Made by a program: the position numbers and the translations under genes
Assembly (NCBI GenBank): GCA_002898315.1
Contig: BEHV01000001.1
Span: 62,001 to 126,000, forward strand
Source: a bacterium HR19
Lineage (GTDB): Bacteria; Calescibacteriota; Calescibacteriia; Calescibacteriales; Calescibacteriaceae
DNA length: 64,000 bases
Direction of reading: 5' to 3'
In this document: one piece after another, positions 54,142 to 59,403 of the stretch
Numbering within the stretch: the stretch's first letter is position 1
Layout of the letters: the number at the start of each line of letters is the position of its first letter
Notes under the pieces: model-generated
Databases searched by the model: none
What the model was told of the DNA's origin: nothing
Seen by the model: only the letters and a program-made list of their open reading frames with translations

Positions 54142-55260
54142 ATGAATTTAGTAGCAACATTTCTGATTTCGGTCGTAGTTGTGACTTCAAACTACGACCT
54201 ATATTACATAGCTTCACGTGTTGCAGACCCCTCTGTTGAAATATACTACCTCGTAGATGAATCACAAGAAGATGGTATAAACTTTCAGATTCAGGATTTT
54301 CACATCAGGTTGCTCAACCGTGCAGATATATTTATTCATACGGGAACATTTGAGAGAAGATGGCTTCAGCAGGCGCTCTGGTCTGCCAGAAACCCAAAAA
54401 TCCTTGAAGGAAAAGAAGGACATATTGATATATCAAAATACATAGATGTAAAAAATGGTTCAAACTGCTTTATATTCAACAAAGAATACATCAAAAGAGT
54501 TGCAGCTATCCTCTCAGGTTTCATAAGAAAACTATCTCCCGATTTTTCAGCAGAGTTTTACGAAAAGAGGCTTTCGGAGTTTTACGCAGAAGTTGATGAG
54601 TATTTTTTTGCACTTCAAACAACAATATCAAGCTATATGCTCCCAAAATTTGCCATCTACTCCCCATGCCTGAAATATCTTTCAGACAGCATGAACTTAA
54701 AGTATGACCTCATTGTGAAAAAAAATGAAGACGAGGTCTTCACCTACGGGCTTGCCCGAGATTCATCAGAGGTTATGAAGAGAATGAACCTTCCTCTCCT
54801 TCTTGCTCCTCACAACATAGAAAGAAGCGCAGAGATAGGATTTATGTCAGCAGAAATCTTCGTCTTGAAAATACCGTCACACCTTGGCAAAAAATACCCA
54901 AACCTCAAATCAATAGTCAATGGTATAACCTTCATAGGAGATATAGAAAAATTAAGAGGTCTTCAAGAGAAAGAAAAAGAAAAGGAAGGAATTATAAAGA
55001 AGGAGGAGAAAAAACCTGCCGAGATAACGAGCATTCCACCAGAAACTCCTCCCGCCCCTCTTGAAGAGTATGCTGTTGTCACATCAAAATACACAAGTAT
55101 AATTTTGAGAGATAGACCTTCTGAACAAGCCGGACAAGCTGGAAAAATAGCCGGTGGGTCAAGGGTTCTGGTCCTTGAAAAGCAAAACGAATGGGTGAAA
55201 ATAACAGATGGAAAAAACATCGGGTGGGTGAGAATAAGCGTCCTCACATTTGAAAAATAA
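54142..55260 (+). CDS. TroA/ZnuA-like domain fused to bacterial SH3
   Basis: The 372-residue protein starts with a signal-like helix (about 1-15). Residues of about 15-275 resemble the metal-binding TroA/ZnuA fold (FLISVVVVTSNYDL, RADIFIHTGTFERRWL, the long KRLSEFYAEVDEYF helix, SPCLKYLSDSMNL). The usual DPHxYEP metal loop is replaced by NFQIQDFHIR, so metal binding is uncertain. A Lys/Glu/Pro linker (about 278-315) leads to an SH3b domain (about 318-370) with VLEKQNEWVKITDGKNIGWV, as in cell-wall binding proteins. No ABC partner is near. It overlaps pth by one base. Confidence 0.72.
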   Translation: MNLVATFLISVVVVTSNYDLYYIASRVADPSVEIYYLVDESQEDGINFQIQDFHIRLLNRADIFIHTGTFERRWLQQALWSARNPKILEGKEGHIDISKYIDVKNGSNCFIFNKEYIKRVAAILSGFIRKLSPDFSAEFYEKRLSEFYAEVDEYFFALQTTISSYMLPKFAIYSPCLKYLSDSMNLKYDLIVKKNEDEVFTYGLARDSSEVMKRMNLPLLLAPHNIERSAEIGFMSAEIFVLKIPSHLGKKYPNLKSIVNGITFIGDIEKLRGLQEKEKEKEGIIKKEEKKPAEITSIPPETPPAPLEEYAVVTSKYTSIILRDRPSEQAGQAGKIAGGSRVLVLEKQNEWVKITDGKNIGWVRISVLTFEK

Positions 55261-55956: not shown

Positions 55957-58900
55957 ATGCTTTTGATCGCAACACTGATAATCTCTCTGTTTTCGGAAGA
56001 GAAAGTTTTAGTATCAAAGGCGGAAGAGCAATCAAAAGTATCGGTAGCTGTCACACCCTCAGGGCAGATCGTAGCAGTTGCAGAAGATACAAATTGCTCA
56101 AAACCAGAAAAGCATATATGTCTTTTTTATAACGGAGAAGAGTTAGCAGATGACTCTTTCGTATCCACAGCTTACCCATCAGTAGCTGTTGATAATAACG
56201 GAAATATATATGTGGTATGGGCTGATGCAAGCCAAATAGACCCAAACTCACGAACAAGAACATGGGATATCTATCTCAGAAAGAGAGTCGGAAACTCATG
56301 GCAGAACTCAGAAAGAATAAACGGTAAAACAACATCAGACCAATGCGGAACTCAGGGAGACCAAATAAAGCCAGATATATATATTTCTGGATCAGAAATA
56401 CATATCGTTTGGCAAAGTATAGAAAGCAACGGGAGGTCTTTTATATGCTATGTCAAGTCGCCAGACCTCGGAGCGAGCTGGACACCTAATAAAAAACTCT
56501 TTGAAGGTTATTATCCATCAATAGCAGTAAAAGGCAACAAGGTGTTTATCGCTTTTTCAGATATAAATGGAAACATAAGATTTGCATCATCACAAGACGG
56601 CGGAAACACTTTTTCTCTGAGAACTCAAAATGTATTCAACGCATCTCAGAGAATTCAAGACCTATCATCGCCAGATATAACAATCTCTCCATCAGGAAAC
56701 ATTCTTCTTGTATGGCAAGATAAACCCATATCAAAATCTGATATAGATATTTTCTTCTCTGTATCAAAAGATGATGGAGCATCGTGGGGAACGCCACAGC
56801 AACTCAATCTACCGGGAGACCAGCTAAACCCTTCGGTTGTTTTTTTCGGGGGACCTAAAATATTTTTCTCCGAAAAAAAGAGTGAGACACTCGGTTTTGA
56901 CATATACTATGTAGAGCAAGAAGGAAATCTCTCTATTTCAAGAGGTGAATTTTCTCCTTCGTCTTCAATAAACACGGTTTCAGGTGTAACTCAGGTTGTT
57001 ATTTTTCAGATGAAAGTTACAGCAAGCGATGACCTGAGTGAAGCAGAGGTAAAAAGCATAACAGTAAAAGCATTCGGTTCTATGGATGACTCAAATCACA
57101 TCTCAAATATATATGCGTGGTGGGATAAAGATGGGAACGGAGTTATATCATCACCAGATATACTTTTGAGCAAATCAAAATTTTCTGCGAACAACGGTAG
57201 CACAACACTTGGTATAAATATTCCTGTCATAACTCCTAATCCCGAGTATATTATTTTTTCTGTTGACCTTGCAAAGCCGATACCACGCGGAAGTGATTTT
57301 CGCATTGAAATATCTCCTTCCGATGTCCTCGCGGTCCTGCCAGGAACATCAAAAGGGGTAAGAGTGGTAGGACCAACGCTTTCAAGTGTAAGCGTTTCGG
57401 TATCAAATAACATTCCTGTTGCGGTAGTATCAGCGAGCAACTCAGCTGTTCTTGAAGGTTCGGGAGTGACAGTGATATTGAACGCATCTTCATCTTATGA
57501 CCCAGATGGAGACCCGCTCACTTTCTCGTGGAGACAAGTAGGAGGAATACCCATATCTCTTTCGAGCTCTGGACCCACCGCAAGCTTTTCCGCACCATCA
57601 TCTGTCACCAAAAACGAAACCCTGACCTTTGAGGTAACTGTTGCTGATTCATTCGGAGGAAGAGCAACAGCAGAGGTATCTGTTACCGTAATTGATTCTA
57701 TAAATGAGCCACCAGTTGCTATTGCAAGAGTAAATATTTCAGGAAATCTTTTTGACGAACCAATAGAGGTAAATGAAGGAGATATTGTTGTGTTAGACGG
57801 CTCTTTAAGTTATGACCCGAACGGTGATAGCTTGGTTTTCTTCTGGTCGCAAGTGGGAGGTCCGAAAGTAGAAATCTTCAACCCATCTGGAATAACCGCA
57901 TATTTTGTGGCTCCCGATGTTGTAGGGCTGGCAAGAGAAACAATAATCATCAATCTTTCTGTGAGAGACAGTAAAGGGGCAGTATCTTCTGACGAGATAA
58001 AGATAAATGTGAGGAACACAAAGAATGACCCTCCACAGCCATCGTTTGATTACAACCCGAAAAAAGGTCTTGCACCACTTGATGTTGAATTTGACGCAAG
58101 CTCTTCCTTTGACCCAGATGGCTCAGTAATCTCTTACAGATGGAACTTCGGAGATGGGACGGAAATTACAACAACCAACACACGAATTACTCACAGATTT
58201 GAAACACCTGGCGAGTACATCGTAACTTTAACGGTTTATGATAACGGAGGGGATTCAAACTCTTTTTCAGCAACTGTTACAGCTCTTTCGTCTGAACCTG
58301 AACTTTTCATCTATACAATAAGCATAACTCAGAATATACCTTTTGGTACAAGAAAAGATATAGGCATTATAAGAGTGTCAAATGTTTCGGGAGAGTCAAT
58401 AATGTTGAGGTCTTTGAAAATGCGGTTTTCGGGAATACCAGACGCATCTGTTGACTTTTTCATAGATTACAACAACGATAAGATTGGAGATGTAAAGGTT
58501 TTTTCTTACTCTTTGAAATCAACATCAGATGCGTTTTTTGTTCCGCTTGACACAATAGTACCGGGGGGAGAGTCAATAAACATAATATTATCCGCAACCG
58601 CTTATCCTTTCAGTATTCCAGCAGATTACACTTTGTATTTTGAATCGGTTGATTCAAGAAGCAGTGTTATGTCTGTTGAGCCGAAGCTTTCAGGAGTTTC
58701 CCTTCCGCAATCTTTCAGATTCGGCGTGAAAAGACCAGCAATATTATTCTTTGCATCTCAGGTCTCATACACGGCATTTCAGGGAAAAGTTGAGATTCCC
58801 ATATCAATAAGAGCAAACGGAGCTAACTTCACTTTAAATTCAATCTCTCTTGAATATAATCCTATTATTTTTGAGTCAATACAGATATTTTCTGATTTAA

Positions 58901-59403
58901 ACGGGAACGGGAGATACGACCCCGGAGATGAGCTTCTCGCAAAGCTTGGGTCAGGGAATTTATCAGCCAATCTTTCTTTGAGTTTATCAAACAGAGATGA
59001 GAAGAAGATTTTGATTGTTGGTTATTTAGCTCCTACAACCGCAGTGGTCGCACCTAAACTTTCGGCTCCAAACAACACCCGCCTATCTCTGCTATTTTAT
59101 TTATGGTTTTCTGTTCCGGTTATTTTTGGGTTGATTTTTATGAAGGTGAAAAGGCAGATTTGTGTTTTCGCTCTTGCGACCTTGATTTTTGCTCTCAATA
59201 TAACCTGTGCAAATAAAGCGGGCAAAGGTATAGTCCAAACCAAGCCAGAACAAAAGCAGTCCACAGAAGTTAGCTCGCAAGAGCGTGGTCAGATTTCGGG
59301 AAAGACAACATCAATCAAGATAAAATCAGTGGGAGTAAGCTCAAACGCGCCAGAATTTGATATAGTAGGAATACCACTTGAAATAAAAGTCATAATACCG
59401 TAA
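55957..59403 (+). CDS. Giant BNR/PKD surface protein with C-terminal lipoprotein-like tail
   Basis: The 1148-residue protein starts with a short hydrophobic stretch and a sialidase/BNR-like propeller (about 25-330, several SxDGGxxW-type Asp boxes). A region of unknown type follows (about 330-480), then three PKD/REJ-like beta domains (about 485-790, YDPDGDPLTFSWRQ and WNFGDGTEI). A further beta region reaches about 1040. Near the end lies a membrane helix (about 1043-1061), then Met1062 starts a segment that looks exactly like a lipoprotein signal (basic KVKR, hydrophobic core, ALNITC lipobox) with a polar tail. This may be a fusion of two genes. Confidence 0.7.
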   Translation: MLLIATLIISLFSEEKVLVSKAEEQSKVSVAVTPSGQIVAVAEDTNCSKPEKHICLFYNGEELADDSFVSTAYPSVAVDNNGNIYVVWADASQIDPNSRTRTWDIYLRKRVGNSWQNSERINGKTTSDQCGTQGDQIKPDIYISGSEIHIVWQSIESNGRSFICYVKSPDLGASWTPNKKLFEGYYPSIAVKGNKVFIAFSDINGNIRFASSQDGGNTFSLRTQNVFNASQRIQDLSSPDITISPSGNILLVWQDKPISKSDIDIFFSVSKDDGASWGTPQQLNLPGDQLNPSVVFFGGPKIFFSEKKSETLGFDIYYVEQEGNLSISRGEFSPSSSINTVSGVTQVVIFQMKVTASDDLSEAEVKSITVKAFGSMDDSNHISNIYAWWDKDGNGVISSPDILLSKSKFSANNGSTTLGINIPVITPNPEYIIFSVDLAKPIPRGSDFRIEISPSDVLAVLPGTSKGVRVVGPTLSSVSVSVSNNIPVAVVSASNSAVLEGSGVTVILNASSSYDPDGDPLTFSWRQVGGIPISLSSSGPTASFSAPSSVTKNETLTFEVTVADSFGGRATAEVSVTVIDSINEPPVAIARVNISGNLFDEPIEVNEGDIVVLDGSLSYDPNGDSLVFFWSQVGGPKVEIFNPSGITAYFVAPDVVGLARETIIINLSVRDSKGAVSSDEIKINVRNTKNDPPQPSFDYNPKKGLAPLDVEFDASSSFDPDGSVISYRWNFGDGTEITTTNTRITHRFETPGEYIVTLTVYDNGGDSNSFSATVTALSSEPELFIYTISITQNIPFGTRKDIGIIRVSNVSGESIMLRSLKMRFSGIPDASVDFFIDYNNDKIGDVKVFSYSLKSTSDAFFVPLDTIVPGGESINIILSATAYPFSIPADYTLYFESVDSRSSVMSVEPKLSGVSLPQSFRFGVKRPAILFFASQVSYTAFQGKVEIPISIRANGANFTLNSISLEYNPIIFESIQIFSDLNGNGRYDPGDELLAKLGSGNLSANLSLSLSNRDEKKILIVGYLAPTTAVVAPKLSAPNNTRLSLLFYLWFSVPVIFGLIFMKVKRQICVFALATLIFALNITCANKAGKGIVQTKPEQKQSTEVSSQERGQISGKTTSIKIKSVGVSSNAPEFDIVGIPLEIKVIIP
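59140..59403 (+). CDS. Possible separate small lipoprotein (nested reading)
   Basis: This is an in-frame subset of the giant protein: an ATG at 59140 begins 87 codons with a type II signal peptide (KVKR, then about 14 hydrophobic residues, then ALNITC) and a 66-residue polar tail. There is no clear ribosome binding site. Either it is an independent start within the large gene, or a stop codon between two genes was lost. Confidence 0.35.
   Translation: MKVKRQICVFALATLIFALNITCANKAGKGIVQTKPEQKQSTEVSSQERGQISGKTTSIKIKSVGVSSNAPEFDIVGIPLEIKVIIP

Follow-up and report, generated by a model that had tools for sequence, protein, structure and literature searches.

We describe a putative lipoprotein (type II) signal, a known kind of signal that by its sequence lies inside a protein, near the end of an 1148-residue chain, and is kept within one chain across the phylum Calescibacterota. 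The gene occupies positions 55957–59403 on the forward (+) strand of the window, the 64,000-nucleotide stretch of DNA that was analysed, with 1148 open codons and a stop codon at 59401–59403. A sequence-only reading of the window had placed a lipoprotein signal after the protein's C-terminal membrane helix, and the parts that it named, a first membrane segment (TM1), a basic run, a second segment (TM2), Cys1084 and a tail, are all found in the 1148-residue frame; Met1062, with which its signal began, is not conserved. In our preferred reading, to which we give an even chance, an ancient fusion created a hairpin-anchored ectodomain followed by an internal lipoprotein-type signal, which is probably lipidated, and the chain may be cut into two products. 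We regard the case as a candidate, short of proof, for processing of a type II signal inside a protein. In window coordinates, the features of the protein are as follows.

55957–56010, + strand: N-terminal signal sequence, residues ~1–18 (five orthologues compared).
56044–56946, + strand: sialidase/BNR-like repeat region of the ectodomain, residues ~30–330 (weak Pfam BNR_2; fold matches to a Micromonospora sialidase).
57394–58296, + strand: PKD/Ig-like domains, residues ~480–780 (PF22352, PF18911, PF00801).
58741–59028, + strand: last ectodomain domain, seven-stranded beta, residues 929–1024 (AlphaFold model, pLDDT mostly 84–92).
59074–59139, + strand: TM1, predicted stop-transfer helix, residues 1040–1061 (hydrophobicity, predicted helix).
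59140–59157, + strand: basic loop M1062-KVKRQ, residues 1062–1067, putative n-region of the lipoprotein-type signal, its Met not conserved (orthologue alignment).
59158–59205, + strand: TM2, residues ~1067–1083, putative h-/c-region of the lipoprotein-type signal, ending in LNIT (hydrophobicity, predicted helix).
59206–59208, + strand: Cys1084, candidate lipidated residue, invariant in five of five orthologues (CANK; orthologue alignment).
59206–59400, + strand: 65-residue tail after TM2, ~30 disordered residues and then beta strands (alignment, AlphaFold, dN/dS).
59302–59397, + strand: three C-terminal beta strands, residues 1116–1147, with a conserved G-[LI]-P-[LI] (pLDDT 85–91).

Among all 17-mers of the protein, those in TM1 and TM2 score highest for hydrophobicity (2.28 and 2.36 on the Kyte-Doolittle scale), and TM2 with its invariant Cys is shaped like a lipoprotein signal. 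At the other end of the chain, the signal sequence (residues 1–20) has no Lys or Arg before its hydrophobic core in any of the five orthologues. The three Pfam matches in the PKD region all lie above their gathering cut-offs, and the BNR_2 score on the ectodomain is 21.9 bits, below the cut-off of 31.4. With a weak full-length model as the query (pLDDT 67, pTM 0.36), a fold search matched general beta-sandwich/sialidase folds only and listed a bacterial sialidase at low TM-score. Elsewhere in the window, at 54142–55260, a ZnuA-like metal-binding domain is fused to a bacterial SH3 domain.

We propose a single chain that consists, in order, of a signal sequence, a secreted beta ectodomain with sialidase-like and PKD parts, TM1 as a stop-transfer helix, a short basic loop in the cytoplasm, TM2, and the Cys with its short tail. 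TM1 would run from outside to inside and TM2 from inside to outside, which would leave Cys1084 and the tail on the outer face of the inner membrane. The stretch between the two helices is basic in all five orthologues (KVKR, KVKR, RKENFVSN, RRK and RRK), and the Cys is therefore predicted to be outside; Lgt and LspA work at this outer face. After membrane insertion, Lgt would put diacylglycerol on Cys1084, and LspA may then cut before it, yielding an ectodomain of ~1083 residues on a helical hairpin and a lipopeptide of 65 residues. If LspA did not cut, the hairpin plus the lipid would keep the tail beside the ectodomain. Judged from sequence, Cys1084 is a candidate lipidation site with roughly equal chances of being modified and of being left bare, and the chance that LspA cleaves before it falls somewhat short of even. 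LspA, Lgt, Lnt and LolA genes are all encoded in the genome. As a separate observation, the lipoprotein pathway is doubled at two steps in this 1.9-Mb genome, which holds two Lnt-like genes (G000:C1:228603 and G000:C7:46248) and two Lgt-like genes (G000:C8:32321 and C1:157582).

The arrangement is old within its family. We compared five genomes of the phylum Calescibacterota, G000 to G004, where G000 is the genome of the window's copy and the named relatives are Candidatus Calescibacterium; the phylum is uncultured, comes from hot springs, is probably Gram-negative and has flagellar genes (PMC4791363). An orthologue is present in all five, with identities to the window's copy of 92, 60, 51 and 48%, and each is a single frame of ~1150 residues. 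A stop codon before Met1062, for which the sequence-only reading had advised a search among orthologues, occurs in none of these five assemblies from three genera, and both parts stand in one chain throughout. The order of TM, basic loop, TM, Cys and tail is likewise kept in frame in all five, and with no conserved internal start the lipoprotein-type signal is not at the N-terminus of the primary product. Outside the family, a search of 60 related and more distant genomes gave matches limited to the PKD or BNR parts. The genes Pth and FliD adjoin the gene only in the closest relative; the available sequence around two other orthologues is short.

Conservation is concentrated after the second helix. 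The sequences of TM1 and TM2 are themselves poorly conserved, whereas C-A-N-K directly follows TM2 in every orthologue, with an invariant G two residues on, and the last part of the tail retains G-[LI]-P-[LI] together with alternating hydrophobic residues. Between the two closest genomes, residues 1062–1148 have a dN of 0.049 and a dS of 0.291, which indicates purifying selection; the corresponding values for the ectodomain are 0.036 and 0.379. Purifying selection and conservation beyond Met1062 together argue that the cell translates this region in the frame of the long protein and that the region is of importance to it. A search of five genomes for the DNA pattern of CANK[AP]G, with G004 left out, found one site in each of four family genomes, always in the known gene, and a profile of the tail found no free copy of it as a separate lipoprotein in 21 genomes. 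Local alignments of the tail to the ectodomain domains were no better than those of shuffled sequences, which argues against a truncated ectodomain repeat as its source.

We then ask how closely the end of TM2 resembles a lipobox. The sequence-only reading had called it perfect-looking, a description that does not hold: Cys1084 is preceded by Thr at −1, Ile at −2, Asn at −3 and Leu at −4. The PROSITE pattern PS51257, which needs Ala, Gly or Ser at −1 and, at −3, a residue that is small or hydrophobic, is failed by the copies of G000, G001, G002 and G004 and is matched only by that of G003 (IIIGS-C, where a hyphen stands before the Cys). Across the five orthologues, position −1 is always Ser or Thr (Thr in three) and position −3 is Asn or Glu in three. 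Thr at −1 is absent from 24 N-terminal lipoproteins of G000, a set picked out with a simple rule and visual inspection. Counted from the last charge, the Cys lies 17, 17, 22, 15 and 14 residues away in the orthologues, compared with 12–21 in the same 24 lipoproteins, and this spacing and the predicted topology fit a type II signal. Profiles spanning TM2, the Cys and the tail also match N-terminal lipoproteins of the same family, with LAAG-CADEPGK and FLYR-CAQEP at their Cys, which suggests that lipoboxes in these genomes can be loose. In some lipoprotein-like precursors the residue just before the Cys is Arg, which is unusual for LspA substrates: FLYR-C (L087, G002:C50, 1480–1975) and QLVR-C (L049, ~residue 281).

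A second protein of the same genomes shows a similar design. We scanned 611 ORFs, covering 660 kb of the 1.88-Mb genome, for a last TM that ends in a Cys behind an earlier TM. A dozen ORFs matched, and a clearly basic loop with a soluble tail of useful length was present in two only, the 1148-residue protein and a paralogue of Lgt. The paralogue (G000:C1:157564–159177, L037:11564–13177; orthologues in L049–L052) has 537 residues, with PF01790 over residues 7–240 and, beyond it and in frame, a basic loop, a TM, Cys282 and a 256-residue tail. It is one frame in four genomes and two genes with an ATGA overlap in G004, and its Cys is kept in all five. The second gene of G004 has a purine-rich stretch like a ribosome site upstream and looks by sequence like a normal precursor of a lipoprotein (MRTKKKTTNKKIAILMILLTLTQN-CKQK). 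At least once, then, an Lgt-paralogue/lipoprotein pair has been either fused or split within this family.

The paralogue thus supplies a parallel, within the same genomes, for joining a membrane protein to a downstream lipoprotein, and the mechanism gains credibility from it. In both proteins a single frame runs from a membrane part that ends in the cytoplasm, through a basic loop and a TM, to an invariant Cys and a soluble tail; the paralogue differs in its longer tail and in being split in G004, and the two are not homologous. A common topology rule applies: the protein ahead of the embedded signal has to finish in the cytoplasm, which allows that signal to insert normally. The gene of the 1148-residue protein probably arose, ahead of the divergence of the known Calescibacterota, when the gene of an inner-membrane protein fused with that of a lipoprotein downstream of it. 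No split orthologue was found among the five genomes, and its fusion origin therefore rests on analogy. More tentatively, the protein may be a polyprotein whose internal type II signal receives its lipid from Lgt and is cleaved by LspA, freeing a hairpin-anchored ectodomain and a small lipopeptide, a device that would have been used twice, the second time on the Lgt paralogue.

Other origins of the signal can be weighed against these data. The sequence-only reading had suggested that loss of a stop codon fused two genes, and adjacent TM and lipoprotein genes with an ATGA overlap do exist in the family, as the Lgt case demonstrates. However, the same continuous frame appears in five independent assemblies from three genera, which excludes a recent stop loss, or an assembly or base error in this genome, and leaves the idea only as an old event, for which the Lgt paralogue is a parallel. 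It had also suggested a nested start near Met1062, from which a free small lipoprotein would be made besides the long protein. Candidate codons are at hand, since Met1062 lies right before KVKR in G000, G001 has Met-Arg-Lys, and G002 and G003 have a GTG nearby. Yet Met1062 is ACG (Thr) in G002, the 92%-identical nearest relative, the Met is missing in two others, G004 lacks a start codon in its n-region and onward to the middle of TM2, and no candidate codon in the five genomes is preceded by a visible Shine-Dalgarno sequence. Because Met1062 is not conserved and a Shine-Dalgarno sequence is lacking, a conserved second start is improbable. A C-terminal sorting signal of the sortase, exosortase or myxosortase kind, in which TM1 and the basic loop are the signal's helix and the rest was added, is more improbable still. 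In its favour, tripartite signals of this type have a TM and then Arg/Lys as their second half, Cys-TM-basic is the ending of other giant PKD proteins in these genomes, and the genome encodes a CPBP protease, but no conserved short motif or Cys stands ahead of TM1 and the chain runs 87 residues past it, through TM2 and the conserved tail. The NCBIfam sorting-signal models gave no match to residues 1032–1148.

There remains the possibility, plausible though one we would not favour, that the two helices form an unprocessed anchor. Here, a TM1/TM2 hairpin would return the tail to the outside, its strands would pack on the last ectodomain domain, Cys1084 would stay unlipidated and TM2 would be a mere look-alike of a signal. 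The sequence-only reading had offered a double-anchor C-terminus, and our data support it as anatomy. A shallow AlphaFold model of residues 929–1148 contains the seven-stranded domain (929–1024), two helices, disorder at ~1083–1113 and three strands at 1116–1147. Its strands mostly have pLDDT values of 84–92, with those of the tail similar in confidence to those of the last ectodomain domain and the linker between them disordered, and in this model the tail could belong to the ectodomain fold rather than form a separate lipopeptide. The single chain in all five genomes and the poor lipobox in four of them agree with such an anchor. In contrast, CANK is invariant exactly at the end of the helix, which is what the start of a lipoprotein would keep, and a small residue (Ser or Thr) occupies −1 in every orthologue. 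Should the strands of the tail pack against the beta domain, the two chains produced by a cut at Cys1084 may remain associated, or cleavage may never take place. A fold search with the C-terminal model gave no match below an E-value of 0.001.

Returning to the internal lipoprotein-type signal, we compared it with known systems. Like N-terminal type II lipoproteins, the substrates of Lgt and LspA, the segment has a basic n-region, a hydrophobic core of 14–22 residues leading to an invariant Cys, Ser or Thr before it and a polar, disordered stretch after it, and the processing enzymes are encoded in this genome; it differs in lying at residue ~1062 of 1148, behind another helix, and in a lipobox that is degenerate in four of five orthologues. 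FbcH, the cytochrome b/c1 precursor of Bradyrhizobium, is a membrane protein fused to a second exported protein, with an internal signal peptide that is cut by signal peptidase. FbcH uses the type I signal peptidase, with no lipid, and its processing has been demonstrated, whereas here processing is predicted. To our knowledge, searches for lipoprotein signals are confined to the N-termini of proteins, and we found no relevant report of an internal lipobox or internal lipoprotein signal in the open-licence literature. Should cells use internal signals, current counts of lipoproteomes are too low and LspA becomes an enzyme of polyprotein processing; the Lgt paralogue, a single frame in four genomes but two genes in the fifth, is a natural comparison for testing them.

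The MYXO-CTERM/myxosortase signals offer another likeness, a C-terminal membrane segment with an invariant Cys, which is thought to be lipidated with Lgt as the leading candidate enzyme (PMC11980579). There, the Cys comes before the helix and the basic residues after it, whereas the order here, basic-helix-Cys, is the lipoprotein orientation. C-termini that resemble MYXO-CTERM signals were seen outside Myxococcota in the giant PKD proteins of L043–L047 (2053, 2094 and 1962 residues in G001, G002 and G004, and a partial frame in G000), which end in GCS-TM-RKRRK and gave no match at cut-off to the NCBIfam models. Several of these giants begin as N-terminal lipoproteins, for example with SSCAKGCGKK, and the CPBP (Rce1-like) protease is encoded at G000:C2:107937.
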